NCBI GenBank assembly: GCA_021787335.1
Contig: JAJYMC010000034.1
Span: 62,001-126,000, forward strand
From: Bacillota bacterium
GTDB taxonomy: Bacteria > Bacillota > Sulfobacillia > JAJYWN01 > JAJZPE01
Reading direction: 5' to 3'
Length of the DNA: 64,000 nucleotides
Part shown: positions 2,872 to 56,119 of the stretch, piece by piece
Layout of the letters: each line of letters opens with the position of its first letter
Numbering within the stretch: the first letter of the stretch is position 1
The notes under the pieces: model-generated
Databases searched by the model: none
The model's input: the letters and a program-made list of their open reading frames with translations, nothing else
What the model was told of the DNA's origin: nothing
Made by a program: the position numbers and the translations under genes

Positions 2872-3705
2872 TTGGCCGCCCTCCTCTCAAGTGAAGGTCT
2901 CGGACATCTGTACAACCAGGGGCAGCCGAACGAGGTGGCTGCCCTGGTCGATGTCAGTGTGGCCATCGAGGCCGGGGAGTTCGTGGCCGTCGTCGGCCCC
3001 AACGGCTCCGGCAAATCGACCCTGGCCAAGCACTTCAACGCCCTGCTTCTGCCGACCTCGGGCCGTGTCCTGGTGGGCGGGATCGACACCCACGACCAGG
3101 CCCGGCTGTGGGAAGTCCGGCGGCTCGCCGGGATGGTCTTTCAGAACCCTGATAACCAGATCGTCGCCACCACCGTCGAGGAGGACGTGGCCTTCGGCCC
3201 CGAGAACCTGGGGGTCGCGCCCGCGGAGATCGGCGAGCGCATCGAACAGGCCCTCCGTTGGGTGGGGATGCTCGAGTACAGGCGGCACGCGCCCCACCTC
3301 CTCTCGGGCGGGCAGAAGCAGCGCGTGGCCATCGCCGGCGTGCTGGCCATGCGGCCGCGCTGCCTCATCCTCGACGAGGCCACGGCGATGCTCGACCCGG
3401 TCGGACGGGACGAGGTCATGGGCACGGCCAAGCGCCTGAACCGCGAGGAAGGCCTGACCGTCGTCCACATCACCCACTTCATGGACGAGGCCGCCGCGGC
3501 CGATCGCGTCCTGGTCATGGACCGCGGGCGAATCAGGCTCTCCGGCACGCCGCGCGAGGTCTTCAGCCGCCCGGCGGAGCTGCGCGAGGTGGGCCTGGAC
3601 CTCCCGCCCATGACGGAGCTGGCCGACCGCCTGCGCCAGGCCGGGTTCGACCTCCCGGCCGGGGTGACCTCGGTCGAAGAGATGGTGGACCTGCTATGCC
3701 GGTGA
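2872..3705 (+). CDS. ecfA1: ECF transporter ATPase, A1-type
   Basis: This is a cytoplasmic ATP-binding subunit of an energy-coupling-factor transporter, which powers uptake of vitamins or metals through interchangeable S components. It has 277 residues. Walker A is GPNGSGKST (42-50), the Q-loop is in V-F-Q-N-P-D-N-Q, the ABC signature is LSGGQKQR and Walker B is C-L-I-L-D-E-A. The D-N-Q-I-V after the Q-loop and E-N-L-G are typical of EcfA. The start is taken as TTG at 2872; an ATG seven bases upstream is out of frame. The reading frame overlaps ecfA2 by 10 bases. No S component is encoded in the window, so the module is probably the shared group II type. Confidence 0.93.
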   Translation: MAALLSSEGLGHLYNQGQPNEVAALVDVSVAIEAGEFVAVVGPNGSGKSTLAKHFNALLLPTSGRVLVGGIDTHDQARLWEVRRLAGMVFQNPDNQIVATTVEEDVAFGPENLGVAPAEIGERIEQALRWVGMLEYRRHAPHLLSGGQKQRVAIAGVLAMRPRCLILDEATAMLDPVGRDEVMGTAKRLNREEGLTVVHITHFMDEAAAADRVLVMDRGRIRLSGTPREVFSRPAELREVGLDLPPMTELADRLRQAGFDLPAGVTSVEEMVDLLCR

Positions 3706-5367: not shown

Positions 5368-6152
<785 letters not shown>

Positions 6153-49737: not shown

Positions 49738-50091
49738 ATCGTGGGGCTGGTGGGGCCGAATCGCCCGCCACGGGCGCTCATCGGCTCTCCTGGGCTCCCG
49801 AGCGGTCCCTTTGAAAAAGTAAAGTCTGGGCGGGTGGCGGTCGATAGAGAAGGTGAGCGGAGGCTCGCCTCCACTCACTCAATAACGCCCGACCTGCCCA
49901 CACGGGTTAACCCCGCCCCATGATCGCTCCCACGGCGAGAGGGCGGGGCTTTTTTTGTGCCCGTCGGACGGCGGGGGCGGGAGGAATTCTCCTTCGATAC
50001 CCGAAACTTGAACCTTCGAGCACTCGGACGACGGCGGCGCGCGAGAGGCCGTCGCGACTGGTCCGGGACCGCAAAGGAGGGCGTTGCCGAG
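49738..50091. other. Gap between the MBL and first M14 genes
   Basis: This 354-base gap holds a short GGAGGC/GCCTCC hairpin near 49858-49871 and a strong terminator (49911-49957). From there to the M14 start it is GC-rich with no clear promoter. No gene is seen. Confidence 0.5.
49911..49957 (+). terminator. Intrinsic terminator upstream of the M14 operon
   Basis: CCCCGCCC (49911-49918) pairs with GGGCGGGG (49941-49948), with an inner TCGC/GCGA pair in the loop. CTTTTTTT follows. It ends transcription from the MBL gene side. Confidence 0.85.
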
Positions 50092-51807
50092 ATGCCCGAG
50101 TACAGCATCGATTTCACCCGCTACCACAAGTACGATGAACTGGTGAAGATCCTCCGCGACCTGAACGCGCTCTACCCCGACTTCACGGCCCTGCAGTCGG
50201 TGGGCAGGTCTTTTGAAGGCCGTGACCTCTGGCTGATGGAGATCACCAACCATAAGACCGGCCCGGGCGACACCAAGCCCGGCTTCTACATCGACGCCAA
50301 CATCCACGCCGGCGAGGTCACCGGCTGCGCCGTGGCCCTCTACACCATCTCGTACCTCCTGACCAAGTACGGCCAGGAGGAGCGGGCCACCGAGCTTCTC
50401 GACACGACCGTCTTCTACATCCTGCCGCGGGTCAGCGTCGACGGCGCGGAGCTCTACCTGACCACGCCGACCATGCTCCGGTCGAGCACCCGGCCGTACC
50501 CTGACCCCGAGGACGAGTGGCTGGAGCAGGAGGGGCTGGCGGCCGAGGACATCAACGGCGACGGGCTCATCCTTCAGATGCGGATCAAGGACGACAACGG
50601 GAACTGGAAGGTCTCGGCCTCCGACCCGCGGCTGATGGTCCTCCGCGCCCCCGACGACCGCGGCGGCCAGTACTATCGGCTCTATCAGGAAGGCGTCCTG
50701 CGGAACTGGGACGGCGGCCCCTTCGAACAGGTCCGGCCGAAATGGGGCCTGGACATCAACCGGAACTGGCCGTCCAACTGGGCGCCCGAGACCCAGCAGT
50801 TCGGCTCCGGCCCGTACCCGCTATCGGAGCCGGAGACGCGGGCCGTGGCCGAGTTTCTCATCAAGCACAAGAACATCGGCGGGGTCATGGCCTACCACAC
50901 CTCCGGCGGCGAGATCCTGCGGCCCTTCGGGACCAAGGGCGACGACAAGATGCCGCCCAAGGACCTCATCGCCTACCGGACCCTGGCCGAGCGCGGCAAA
51001 CAGCTGACCGGGTACACCCCGAAGTCGGTCTTCGAGGACTACACGGCCGACAAGACCAAGCCCCTGCGCGGGGTCTTCATGGACTGGACCTATGAGCAAC
51101 TCGGCATCATCACCTACTCGACCGAGCTGTGGAACGTGGCCCAGCGGGCCGGCATCGCCGAGCGGACCCCGGCGCAGATGATGAAGCTCAGCGACCGGGA
51201 GCGCGAGGAGGATGGGCTCAAACTGCTCAAGTGGAACGACGAGGTCCTCGGGGGCGAGGGCTTCGCGAACTGGACTCCTTTCAAGCACCCGCAACTTGGC
51301 GAGGTCGAGCTCGGCGGCTGGAAGGCCAAGTACGTGCGGCAGAACCCGCCGGGGAAGCTCCTCCCCGAGGAGTGCCACAAGAACGCGATGTTCACCCTGA
51401 CCCACGCCCTGGCCTTGCCCCACCTGAACTTCAGCCGGGTCGAGACGCAGCCGGTCGGCGGCGAGGACAAGGAACGCTTCTACAAGGTCCAGGTGACCCT
51501 GCAGAACGAGGGCTACTTCCCGACGAGCGGCTCGGACCAGGCCGTGGCGGCCAAGGCGGTGAAGGCCATCGAGGTCGTCGTGACCCCCGGCGACGGCGTC
51601 GAACTGGTGGCGGGCAAGGACAAGGAAGAGATCGGCCACCTCGAGGGACGCGTCGGCAACTTCGCGGGCTACTTCTTCGGCGGCTCGCCCAAGACCGAGC
51701 GGCGTCTGGAGTGGCTGTTCAAGGTGGGAAGCGACCGGGGTCGGGTGACCATCACCGCCCGCTCCGAGAGGGCCGGCACCATCACCCGCCAGATCGAACT
51801 GGCGTAA
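50092..51807 (+). CDS. M14 family zinc carboxypeptidase (copy 1)
   Basis: This is a 571-residue zinc metallopeptidase of the M14 family. The zinc ligands are H and E in N-I-H-A-G-E-V-T-G (near residue 75) and H in A-Y-H-T-S-G-G (near 268). N-R-N-W at about 222 is the substrate-carboxylate region, and E in Y-S-T-E-L-W near 345 the catalytic glutamate. The C-terminal 150 residues form an additional beta domain. There is no signal peptide, so it is probably cytoplasmic. The ATG at 50092 follows AAAGGAGGG. A close homologue follows after 12 bases. Confidence 0.88.
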   Translation: MPEYSIDFTRYHKYDELVKILRDLNALYPDFTALQSVGRSFEGRDLWLMEITNHKTGPGDTKPGFYIDANIHAGEVTGCAVALYTISYLLTKYGQEERATELLDTTVFYILPRVSVDGAELYLTTPTMLRSSTRPYPDPEDEWLEQEGLAAEDINGDGLILQMRIKDDNGNWKVSASDPRLMVLRAPDDRGGQYYRLYQEGVLRNWDGGPFEQVRPKWGLDINRNWPSNWAPETQQFGSGPYPLSEPETRAVAEFLIKHKNIGGVMAYHTSGGEILRPFGTKGDDKMPPKDLIAYRTLAERGKQLTGYTPKSVFEDYTADKTKPLRGVFMDWTYEQLGIITYSTELWNVAQRAGIAERTPAQMMKLSDREREEDGLKLLKWNDEVLGGEGFANWTPFKHPQLGEVELGGWKAKYVRQNPPGKLLPEECHKNAMFTLTHALALPHLNFSRVETQPVGGEDKERFYKVQVTLQNEGYFPTSGSDQAVAAKAVKAIEVVVTPGDGVELVAGKDKEEIGHLEGRVGNFAGYFFGGSPKTERRLEWLFKVGSDRGRVTITARSERAGTITRQIELA

Positions 51808-51819
51808 GGAGGGCACTCC

Positions 51820-53532
51820 ATGCCGACCAAGGTGGAACTGGACTTCACCCGCTACCACAAATACGATGAACTCGTCGAGGCCCTGAACCGTCTGGCCGCC
51901 GCCCACCCGGGTCTCGCCCGGGTCTACTCCATCGGCCGCAGCCTGGACGGGCGCGACCAGTGGCTCATCGAGATCACCAATGAGGCGACCGGGCCGGCGG
52001 CCGACAAGCCGGCCTACCACATCAACGGCAACCATCACGCCGGGGAGGTCACCGGTTCGTCGGTGGCCCTCTACACCGCGTGGTATCTGCTCTCGCGCTA
52101 CGGCGACGACCAGGAGGTCACCGACCTCCTCGACACGCGGGCCTTCTACATCCTGCCCCGCATCGCCGTCGACGGGTCGGAGAAGTACCTGACCACCCCG
52201 TACATGATCCGTTCGAGCGTCCGGCTGTACCCGGACTCCGAGGCCGAGACCAAAGACGGCCTCTACCCCGAGGACATCAACGGGGACGGCAAGGTCCTGA
52301 CCATGCGGGTCCGTGACGACAGCGGCGAGTGGAAGGTCTCCGACGGCGACGCCAGGCTGATGGTCCGGCGCCGCCCGGACGAGAACGGCGGGACGTACTA
52401 CCGGCTCCTCACCGAGGGCCTCATCCGTAACTACAAGGAGGGCCCCTTCACGGCCGCCCCGAACCGCTGGGGCGTCGACTTCAACCGGAACTACCCGGCC
52501 AACTGGAGCCCTGAGCCCAGGCAGCGCGGGGCGGGGTCCTTCCCCTTCTCGGAACCGGAGATCCATAACCTGGCCAGGTTCATCCTCGAACACCCGAACA
52601 TCGCCGGGGCCATGTCCTACCACACCACCGGCGGGGTCATCCTGAGGCCCTTCGCCACCCAGAGTGACGAGAAGTTCCCGCCCAAGGACCTGGCGGCCTA
52701 CAAGGCCATCGGGGAGCGCGGCGAGGAGATCACCGGTTACCCGTGCTGGCAGATCTGGGAGCGGTTCACGGCCAACAAGGGCCGGCCCGAGGTCGGCTCG
52801 TTCCCCGAGTGGGTCTACGAGGACCTGGGCATCTTGGCCTACGAGATCGAGCTGTGGGACATGAACACCCAGGCGGGCGTGCCCAAGCGGGACTTCAAGG
52901 GCCTCATCGAGCTGACCGACAAGGAGCGCGAGGAGGACGGCCTGAAGTTCCTCCAGTGGAACGACCGGGAACTCGGCGGCCGCGGCTTCACCGACTGGGC
53001 GCCCTTCGACCATCCGCAACTCGGCGCGGTGGAGATCGGGGGATGGGACCCCAAGTTCGTCCGCCAGAACCCGCCGCCGCACCTGCTCCCCGGCGAGTGT
53101 CACAAGTGTGCCCGGTTCACCCTACGGCACGCGGCCGCCTCGCCCCGGCTGAAGCTGGCCCAGGCCAAGGCCGAACGGGTCGGCGGGGCGGGGAGCGGCG
53201 CCTCCCTCTGGAAGCTGGCCGTGACCGTCGAGAATGAGGGCTACCTGCCGACGGCGGTGACCGAGATGGCCGTGAGCAACCGACGGGCCAAGCCGGTGAC
53301 CGCCAAGATCGCCCTGACAGCGGGGGCGGAACTGGTCTTCGGCCGGGAGAAGGAAGACCTCGGGCACCTCGGCGGGCGGGTCGCCGCCGGTGGGGCCTTC
53401 GGTGGCGGCGGCGTGCCGGACAACCAGAAGATGGTCACCTGGCTGATCAAGGCGCCCGCGGGCGGCGAGGCCACGGTCACCGTCGAGTCGCCGCGGGCTG
53501 GGAAGGTGACGCGGGAGGTGGTCCTGTCATGA
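51820..53532 (+). CDS. M14 family zinc carboxypeptidase (copy 2)
   Basis: This is a 570-residue paralogue of the preceding gene. Both start with D-F-T-R-Y-H-K-Y-D-E-L-V and share N-G-D-G, L-T-T-P and S-E-P-E blocks. Zinc ligands are in N-H-H-A-G-E-V-T-G and S-Y-H-T-T-G-G; the catalytic glutamate is in Y-E-I-E-L-W-D. No signal peptide is present. It arose by tandem duplication and has since diverged, particularly around the C-terminal beta domain. The ATG at 51820 follows TAAGGAGGGCACTCC, and the stop overlaps the RidA gene by four bases. Confidence 0.88.
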   Translation: MPTKVELDFTRYHKYDELVEALNRLAAAHPGLARVYSIGRSLDGRDQWLIEITNEATGPAADKPAYHINGNHHAGEVTGSSVALYTAWYLLSRYGDDQEVTDLLDTRAFYILPRIAVDGSEKYLTTPYMIRSSVRLYPDSEAETKDGLYPEDINGDGKVLTMRVRDDSGEWKVSDGDARLMVRRRPDENGGTYYRLLTEGLIRNYKEGPFTAAPNRWGVDFNRNYPANWSPEPRQRGAGSFPFSEPEIHNLARFILEHPNIAGAMSYHTTGGVILRPFATQSDEKFPPKDLAAYKAIGERGEEITGYPCWQIWERFTANKGRPEVGSFPEWVYEDLGILAYEIELWDMNTQAGVPKRDFKGLIELTDKEREEDGLKFLQWNDRELGGRGFTDWAPFDHPQLGAVEIGGWDPKFVRQNPPPHLLPGECHKCARFTLRHAAASPRLKLAQAKAERVGGAGSGASLWKLAVTVENEGYLPTAVTEMAVSNRRAKPVTAKIALTAGAELVFGREKEDLGHLGGRVAAGGAFGGGGVPDNQKMVTWLIKAPAGGEATVTVESPRAGKVTREVVLS

Positions 53533-54014: not shown

Positions 54015-54020
54015 AAAAGA

Positions 54021-54053
54021 GACCCGGGATCGTGAGATCCCAGGTCCATTTTT
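54021..54053 (+). terminator. Intrinsic terminator after the RidA gene
   Basis: GACCCGGGATC (54021-54031) pairs with GATCCCAGGTC (54036-54046) with one C-A mismatch and a four-base loop. CATTTTT follows. It closes the M14-M14-RidA operon. Confidence 0.85.
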
Positions 54054-54073: not shown

Positions 54074-54166
54074 TCAAAGGATGCCGGGTCCCTTACAGAT
54101 GCCGCTGGGGACGACGAAGAAGGCGGAGATGAGAACCAGAAACGCAAGCCATCTTAGCTTTCTCAC
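54074..54166 (-). CDS. 30-residue hydrophobic peptide downstream of the TPR/HD-GYP gene
   Basis: A GTG at 54166 with AAAGGTGG eight bases upstream opens a 30-codon frame ending in TGA at 54074-54076. The peptide has a basic start (V-R-K-L-R-W), a hydrophobic core of about 13 residues (L-A-F-L-V-L-I-S-A-F-F-V-V) and a short tail P-S-G-I-C-K-G-P-G-I-L. This is the layout of a signal-peptide-bearing pheromone precursor such as Phr. It is 63 bases after the stop of a TPR-domain protein on the same strand, like rap-phr pairs. No homologue is recognised, and a chance frame cannot be excluded. Confidence 0.45.
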   Translation of the reverse strand: MRKLRWLAFLVLISAFFVVPSGICKGPGIL

Positions 54167-54229
54167 AACACCTGCCACCTTTCACCAATGTGATCTCGGT
54201 CGGCTCATTTATGTGCCTTGCTCTTGGCG

Positions 54230-55879
54230 CTAATCCAGGTCGACCTCATGGAGGGCGACGAAGGCGGCGACGACATCCGGGTCGAACTGCCGTCCGGCTC
54301 CCTCTCGTAGCTTGTCCATGGCCAGTGAGTGCGGGAAGGCCTGCCGGTAGGCCCGGTCGGTGGTCATCGCGTCGTAGGCGTCGGCCACGCTGAGGATCCT
54401 CGTCAGGAACGGGATGGACTCGCCCTTCAGACCCACAGGATAACCGGTCCCGTCATACCGCTCGTGGTGATGCTTGACCAGAGAGACGGCCTCGTCCGAG
54501 GTGAGGATGAAGCGGGTCATGTCCACCCCGGTGACCGGATGACGCCGGATGGCCTCGTACTCTTCGGCGGTCAGGACGCCCGGCTTGTTGAGGATGGCCG
54601 AGCTGATGGAGACCTTGCCCACATCGTGCAGGCGTCCGGCCAGAGCCATGACGTCGCGGTCTCGCTGGGGGACCTCCATCGCCTCGGCGATCTTCAGGGC
54701 GTAGGCGGTTACTCGTTCGGAATGGCCGCGTGTGTATGGATCCTTGGCCTCGATGGCGTCGGCGAAGCGGAGGAAAGTGTCGAGGTAGTGGAAGCGCAGT
54801 TCCTGCTCGGAGAAATCCTGATCCGGCCGAGCGGGGACGTCCTTCGGTGACTCGTAGACGGTCAGACGCTTGGTTTTCTTACCCCCCGTCGAGGGGTTCA
54901 AGCTTTCGACGCCTGCCGGGGGAATTCCTTCCAGGTCATGGCCGGAGTCTGAAAGTTTTGTCTTGAGCCGGCGAAGGACGGCGTCGGCCTCGGCCAGCCG
55001 CCCCCGGGCGCGGAGTTGGCCGTAGTAATGGGAGGCCCGCCGGGCGTAGATCATCCCCTTGACGGCCTGGCCGATGGCCTCGAAGATGAGGGCGAAGACC
55101 AGACTGACCTGGCCGACTTCCTCACGGTCGAGGGCGTTGACATCGGAGAATAGGGCGACCAGGGACCGGTTACAGAAGTGCATCGCCAACTGGTAGTCGC
55201 CCTGGAGGTAGTAGACCCGGGCCATCTCCGTATAGGTGTAGGCGATCTGCTTCTGATTCCCCAGCGCTCGCCCGGCGGCCAGGGCCCGTTCGAAATAGCT
55301 CAGGGCGCGCCGGTATTCGGCCAGGGCCCCATGGGTGATACCCAGGTTGGTACAGGCCATGGACTCGTAGTTCTTGGCCCCGGACCGTTCGAAGAGCGCC
55401 AGGGCCTCATTGGTGCGCTTGAAGGCTTTGCGATAGGCCCCCAGGTCGAGGTGAAGCCCACCTAACCACATAAGGACGCGACCGCGCATGACCTCGTCGT
55501 CGAGGTCGTTGAGGAGGACGAGGGCCCGCCGCAGGTGACGCTCCGACCGTCCGTACTGACCGAGGTGCCACAGGACCGAGCCCAGGTTGGCCTCGATCTT
55601 GCCCATGGCCACGTCGTCCTTGCGGGGTCCCTGGGCCAGACGGCGACGGGCGTTCTGAAAGCATTTCAGGGCCTCGTCGACCGAGGCCTCCTCGAGGCAG
55701 GCGACGCCAAGGGCGTTCTCGGCCAGGGCCGCGTCGACATTGTCGCCGGCCTGCCGGGCCTCGTCGAGCCAGCTCTGGAACTCCTCTATGGACGCCTTCA
55801 AGAGGCCCTTCGAGAACAGGGCCCCGCCCCGGCGCCGGTGGTTGTCACCGGCCGTCCGCGGCCAGGCTGATGTGGTCAA
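54230..55879 (-). CDS. TPR-HD-GYP protein, probable cyclic-di-GMP phosphodiesterase
   Basis: This 549-residue cytosolic protein joins an N-terminal helical repeat array (about residues 20-310, with TPR-like blocks such as A-L-G-V-A-C-L-E-E-A and A-C-T-N-L-G-I-T-H-G) to a C-terminal HD-GYP domain (about 365-545). The latter has F-A-D-A-I-E-A-K-D-P-Y-T-R-G-H-S-E, the L-H-D-V-G-K motif, H-H-H-E-R-Y-D-G-T-G-Y-P, and V-A-D-A-Y-D-A-M-T-T-D, all the residues expected for a phosphodiesterase acting on cyclic di-GMP. The start is probably TTG 55879 after a GGGGGGGAAG site; ATG 55909 is an alternative. The TPR part would serve as the sensor. A small peptide gene follows. Confidence 0.85.
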   Translation of the reverse strand: MTTSAWPRTAGDNHRRRGGALFSKGLLKASIEEFQSWLDEARQAGDNVDAALAENALGVACLEEASVDEALKCFQNARRRLAQGPRKDDVAMGKIEANLGSVLWHLGQYGRSERHLRRALVLLNDLDDEVMRGRVLMWLGGLHLDLGAYRKAFKRTNEALALFERSGAKNYESMACTNLGITHGALAEYRRALSYFERALAAGRALGNQKQIAYTYTEMARVYYLQGDYQLAMHFCNRSLVALFSDVNALDREEVGQVSLVFALIFEAIGQAVKGMIYARRASHYYGQLRARGRLAEADAVLRRLKTKLSDSGHDLEGIPPAGVESLNPSTGGKKTKRLTVYESPKDVPARPDQDFSEQELRFHYLDTFLRFADAIEAKDPYTRGHSERVTAYALKIAEAMEVPQRDRDVMALAGRLHDVGKVSISSAILNKPGVLTAEEYEAIRRHPVTGVDMTRFILTSDEAVSLVKHHHERYDGTGYPVGLKGESIPFLTRILSVADAYDAMTTDRAYRQAFPHSLAMDKLREGAGRQFDPDVVAAFVALHEVDLD

Positions 55880-56119
55880 TGAGCTTCCCCCCCCCAAGGC
55901 ATACCCCATACACAGGATTCGGAGCCAAGGTCTGGGAATGTGAGGGTCGTCCAGACGGCTCCGGGCGACCATGGCGGACCATGGCCGCAGATGAAGCCCT
56001 TTAATCGCCCATCCAGGCCGCGGTGCGCCTCATCGTGGCCTCGCTGGCGATCTCGGCGGAGGAACCCCTTCGGGCGCCGTCGAAGCACTAACCATCGGAC
56101 AGCATGGAGGTGTGGGGAA

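Follow-up and report, generated by a model that had tools for sequence, protein, structure and literature searches.

The locus studied here lies in a 64,000-nucleotide stretch of DNA (hereafter the window) and raises the question of whether a gene for a TPR–HD-GYP protein and the very small gene that follows it form a peptide-signalling module with a second messenger as its output. An initial annotation had named a TPR array fused to an intact HD-GYP domain and, 63 bases downstream, a signal-peptide-like frame with a good ribosome binding site, and it had compared the pair with RRNPP systems; all of the elements that it named are present at the positions that it gave. On the data described below, the reading with the best support is a peptide quorum-sensing module of RRNPP-like type whose output is a cyclic-dinucleotide phosphodiesterase.

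The TPR–HD-GYP gene occupies positions 54230..55879 of the minus strand and encodes 549 aa, with a TTG start at 55879 and a TAG stop at 54230. An upstream ATG at 55972 is an alternative start, but the TTG is favoured because the two nearest homologues, from a same-family genome (G002; GTG) and a same-genus genome (G001; TTG), start at the same position, each after GGGAGG. Pfam assigns TPR_12 to four stretches of the window protein and, besides the TPRs, detects only HD_5/HD. An AlphaFold model built on a 13-row alignment (pLDDT 85, pTM 0.80) consists of seven TPR helix pairs (residues 12–311; 54947..55846, minus strand), a disordered linker (residues 312–357; 54809..54946, minus strand; pLDDT <50 over residues 315–356) and the HD-GYP domain (residues 358–549; 54233..54808, minus strand). 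The protein read from the TTG lacks a hydrophobic N-terminus and is thus predicted to be a cytoplasmic TPR protein without a signal peptide, as RRNPP receptors are. It is present in a single copy in its own genome, in which the other full-strength matches span the HD-GYP part only.

The active site of the HD-GYP domain is well preserved. With ligand roles taken from the phosphodiesterase PmGH (PMC4159591), the window protein has D380, H386, H418, D419, K422, H447, H471, H472, the GYP motif at 479–481, D500 and D503, so that the PmGH residues D183, H189, H221, D222, K225, H250, H276, H277, GYP, D305 and D308 are all kept. The ligand E185 of PmGH is replaced by Tyr, all other metal ligands being retained, which places the domain in the Y/F subfamily, a group for which a binuclear centre is expected (PMC4159591). 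The catalytic domain is shared with the phosphodiesterases PmGH (4MCW), PA4781 (4R8Z), V-cGAP3 (5Z7C) and DvhD (9RBZ), and PmGH carries a GAF sensor ahead of its HD-GYP domain, whereas the window protein has a TPR sensor and a paired peptide gene. Foldseek searches with the catalytic part returned DvhD, PA4781 and PmGH, the closest folds including an HD-GYP domain bound to c-di-GMP, and the PDB entry that matches best in sequence is V-cGAP3, a cGAMP phosphodiesterase. This match, together with the Y/F assignment, makes both c-di-GMP and 3′3′-cGAMP candidate substrates. The fusion of a TPR array to an intact HD-GYP domain is thereby borne out by Pfam, AlphaFold and the active-site residues; the breakdown of c-di-GMP had been suggested as its output, but sequence does not fix which of the two dinucleotides is the substrate.

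The peptide gene (54074..54166, minus strand; 30 codons plus stop, GTG start) encodes MRKLRWLAFLVLISAFFVVPSGICKGPGIL and has a homologue in G002. It lies on the same strand as the receptor gene, exactly 63 nt beyond the TAG stop, and is preceded by the Shine–Dalgarno-like sequence AAAGGTGG (54175..54182, minus strand) 8 nt before the GTG, in agreement with the initial annotation. A terminator scan found none between the two genes and identified an intrinsic terminator directly past the peptide gene (54020..54047, minus strand; z = −3.2), a 12-pair hairpin with a U-run located 3′ of the peptide stop. Signal peptidase would cut after VPS, and the likely mature peptide is GICKGPGIL (54077..54103, minus strand) or a piece of it; the tail ending in KGPGIL noted previously is thus confirmed and the likely mature form refined. 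The peptides tested gave no Pfam or NCBIfam family above cut-off. A tandem pair of genes resembling M14 zinc carboxypeptidases, neither with an obvious signal peptide (Pfam was run on the second gene only), lies on the plus strand at 49957–53532, convergent with the peptide gene, and the downstream stretch read at the syntenic G002 locus contains no M14-like genes.

Comparison of the last nine codons of the peptide genes in the window (G000) and G002, which encode GICKGPGIL and GICKGPGLL, revealed eight nucleotide differences with eight of the nine residues identical (P = 1.8e-4 under random placement of changes), while the signal part has diverged. This pattern indicates purifying selection on the mature part of the peptide. 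A search of 61 genomes with the degenerate GICKGP motif matched one site in each of these two and none in the rest. In a more distant homologue (G015), the propeptide MKKMLALFTVLAVLLAGTPALAKAKSNTTKGPIIGDALYGPIIGDALYGPIIGDALYTQLNK contains three tandem copies of GPIIGDALY whose 27-nt repeat units share 81–85% DNA identity and are identical in protein. Repeats that differ in DNA and agree in peptide are typical of pheromone propeptides, and tandem pheromone copies within one propeptide are documented for Rap–Phr systems (PMC11343458). Ten of the 12 mature parts contain a GP dipeptide, whereas shuffling predicts 3.9 (P = 1e-4); the contexts are KGPGIL, KGPGLL, IGPPMW, QGPVIQ, QGPFTI, SGPIIR, SGPWWW, NGPMVS, HGPMVS and KGPIIG. 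When one peptide is picked per clade, the dipeptide is present in seven of seven under favourable picks and in five of seven (P = 0.04) under unfavourable ones.

Conservation of the peptide frame next to homologues, on which the initial annotation had hinged its proposal, was examined in 61 relatives, the class (154 genomes) and two draws of 398 phylum genomes. Homologues combining TPRs with an HD-GYP-like domain numbered 22, and downstream DNA was available for 21 of them; the contig of the same-genus genome G001 ends before the peptide position. One scan of genome contigs gave matches almost entirely in the HD-GYP part because the matching patterns fell in the conserved HD part. An exported-peptide gene was scored as intact when the enzyme gene was immediately followed, in the same orientation, by an ORF whose product has a basic N-terminus, then a hydrophobic segment and finally a short tail. 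Such a gene is present in 12 of the 21 homologues, namely the window and 11 others (G002, G028, G036, G140, G141, G143, G144, G164, G087, G011 and G015; the class of G164 contains one genome only). At loci with an undamaged enzyme frame, the gap between the two genes ranges from −4 to +63 nt; G140 and G015 retain the peptide gene next to a frameshifted or damaged enzyme gene. In G044, the sister of G144, the tail TQSRPIIRDGGF lies right after the enzyme stop (L130, about 2998–3040) and the signal part is missing, so that the peptide gene has decayed although the enzyme is intact.

The remaining eight homologues (G361, G009, G034, G113, G115, G124, G013 and G037) have no peptide gene and, together with the remnant in G044, are counter-points to the module. 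In all eight, the lysine equivalent to PmGH K225 is replaced, and six of them also lack the His of the HD pair; the association between peptide presence and an intact lysine is significant (Fisher P = 7e-4) when homologues are counted as independent despite their relatedness. In a maximum-likelihood tree, the peptide-bearing receptors are scattered over deep branches outside a clade with a degenerate HD domain. At loci L164, L168, L169, L189, L192 and L193, a TPR clade with a degenerate HD-GYP domain has no peptide gene, and RLAD(V/F/Y)GL replaces HDxGK.

Control comparisons were all scored by one set of criteria, a Shine–Dalgarno-preceded signal-peptide-like ORF within 100 nt downstream. Within the class, none of 24 HD-GYP genes lacking TPRs is followed by such an ORF; among HD-GYP genes from named genomes the figure is one of 78, and among long frames in the window it is two of 83, the TPR–HD-GYP gene itself accounting for one of these. 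For the first ten loci, the pairing differs from the controls with Fisher P = 2e-7. On the strength of these controls and of the conservation of GICKGPG(I/L)L, a chance ORF was rejected. A general habit of TPR genes in the window's genome was likewise rejected, the other intact TPR genes checked having no such ORF within 500 nt. Elsewhere, a deltaproteobacterial HD-GYP gene (L042, about 5585–5690) overlaps a 32-codon signal-peptide-like ORF (MRQAHWLAVALGLIVTLTPWPLACSTPILPLY).

RRNPP receptors hold the peptide backbone by a strictly conserved Asn, which in RapF is N227, beside Tyr226 (PMC3601957). The groove of the window TPR domain presents N55, N98 and N178. N178 is invariant across all 13 rows of the family alignment, and a profile alignment matches it to the Asn of the YN pair in the phage phi3T Rap; N55 and N98 occupy the equivalent place in two other repeats. 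A counterpart of the backbone-binding Asn on which the earlier RRNPP comparison turned is accordingly present. Foldseek searches with the TPR part returned the peptide-binding TPRs of LGN as the nearest structures, with the phi3T Rap bound to its pheromone at rank 45. That TPR domains also bind other proteins, and that the nearest folds are those of LGN, not Rap, argue against taking peptide binding for granted. In an AlphaFold model of a single-chain fusion made by reading through the stop, the tail had a pLDDT of 23–30 and was not docked; given the shallow alignment and the inclusion of the signal segment, this outcome counts neither for nor against binding.

We consider it probable that the two genes form a module in which an exported and re-imported peptide binds the TPR domain and alters the rate at which the HD-GYP domain hydrolyses cyclic dinucleotides. 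Sequence evidence demonstrates that the two genes are paired and in what order, that a terminator follows them, that the mature part is conserved under purifying selection, that one relative carries a pheromone-like tandem repeat and that the groove Asn and the active site are conserved. The propeptide would leave the cell via Sec and be trimmed to a few C-terminal residues (GICKGPGIL or part of it), and this peptide would build up outside the cell and be taken up again by an oligopeptide permease. Inside the cell, it would bind within the TPR superhelix of the co-transcribed receptor and change its phosphodiesterase activity, so that the peptide level, reflecting density or an export–import timer, would set c-di-GMP. 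By analogy with Rap–Phr, inhibition is slightly favoured as the sign of regulation. The window's genome has 11 GGDEF matches and nine matches to SBP_bac_5 oligopeptide-binding proteins, which make a c-di-GMP pool and oligopeptide uptake plausible.

Three other explanations were weighed. The peptide could be a pheromone for the TPR protein while the HD-GYP-like domain serves as a nucleotide sensor or protein-binding module. This is suggested by changes in peptide-bearing homologues at the K225 position (G141 and G140) or the D305/D308 positions (G036, G087 and G011), since K225A and D308A abolish PmGH activity (PMC4159591), and in these five the output may indeed be non-enzymatic. As a general account we hold it unlikely: the window protein and its homologues in G002, G143, G144 and G164 keep the PmGH ligands except E185, whose place is taken mostly by Tyr and in G143 by His, and all eight homologues without a peptide gene have lost the lysine. 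The small gene might instead encode a secreted peptide with an extracellular job of its own, for example antimicrobial or surface-active, which the TPR–HD-GYP protein merely regulates or with which it shares an operon. Several mature parts are 17–54 residues long, compared with the usual 5–10 residues of pheromones, and are rich in glycine or histidine, as this explanation would have it; nevertheless, the conserved portion comprises only a few C-terminal residues, GPIIGDALY is tandemly repeated, no Pfam or NCBIfam family fits and peptide genes accompany the TPR form but not ordinary HD-GYP genes, so that we regard a separate function as distinctly unlikely.

Least probable in our judgement is a one-helix membrane anchor or sensor whose tail recruits the TPR–HD-GYP protein to the membrane with no export–import cycle. 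The hydrophobic segment is strong in all of the peptides, the cut site of the window peptide (VPS) is weak and the read-through AlphaFold model retains a long helix, all of which would suit an anchor. Most homologues, however, have clear AxA-type cut sites (ASA, AVA and AWA) followed by a polar tail, and the tandem tail repeats fit a processed propeptide. Paired peptide sequences are known for twelve receptors, which makes the idea of a pheromone module directly testable.

The module shares with the RRNPP(A) receptors (Rap, Rgg, NprR, PlcR, PrgX and AimR) a cytoplasmic TPR protein, an adjacent short propeptide gene of 10–100 aa with a Sec-type N-terminus (in the window and 11 homologues), a conserved groove Asn and, as in some members, tandem repeats in the propeptide. 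It differs in its architecture: RRNPP(A) receptors have an N-terminal HTH or the three-helix bundle of Rap and NprR, whereas the TPRs of the window protein start at residue 12 and the output is a C-terminal HD-GYP domain. The GP-x-(I/L) core of the peptides is unlike Phr, and the pairs occur in other Bacillota lineages. To our knowledge, the RRNPP receptors described so far have DNA or response regulators as their targets. At 549 aa, the window receptor is also longer than the known members (285–473 aa), and RRNPP_detector, which retains only receptors of 250–500 aa (PMC10075063), would have missed it. Because its output is neither an HTH nor a three-helix bundle and its length falls outside 250–500 aa, we file it as RRNPP-like and not as a member.

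In Gram-negative bacteria, DSF acting through RpfC/RpfG links cell density to an HD-GYP enzyme. These systems, which also include the DSF-responsive RpfR of Gram-negatives (PMC6361424), share with the window pair the control of a c-di-GMP phosphodiesterase (HD-GYP in RpfG) by a density signal, but they use a fatty-acid signal and kinase or PAS sensing, in contrast to a ribosomal peptide and a TPR domain fused to the enzyme. The initial annotation had regarded a direct route from density to c-di-GMP as undescribed; given DSF–Rpf, the novelty narrows to the peptide/TPR type in one protein, and no TPR–HD-GYP/peptide pair was found in searches that covered mainly the open literature. The data suggest an undescribed route by which peptide signals between cells would act directly on a second messenger, and we lean towards an ancient form of peptide quorum sensing in Bacillota, a family whose pheromone receptors are themselves cyclic-dinucleotide phosphodiesterases. 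If so, a single protein would link peptide signalling to second messengers in Gram-positive-type bacteria, and surveys confined to receptors of 250–500 aa would overlook part of peptide quorum sensing.

HTH–TPR regulators of 450, 683 and 710 aa were also encountered (L163, 922–2274, L170 and L172, in G017, G261 and G319, respectively), and each of their genes is followed by a signal-peptide ORF within 26 nt. The peptides of the 683- and 710-aa regulators, which are longer than the RRNPP_detector limit, have a QWPT motif in common.
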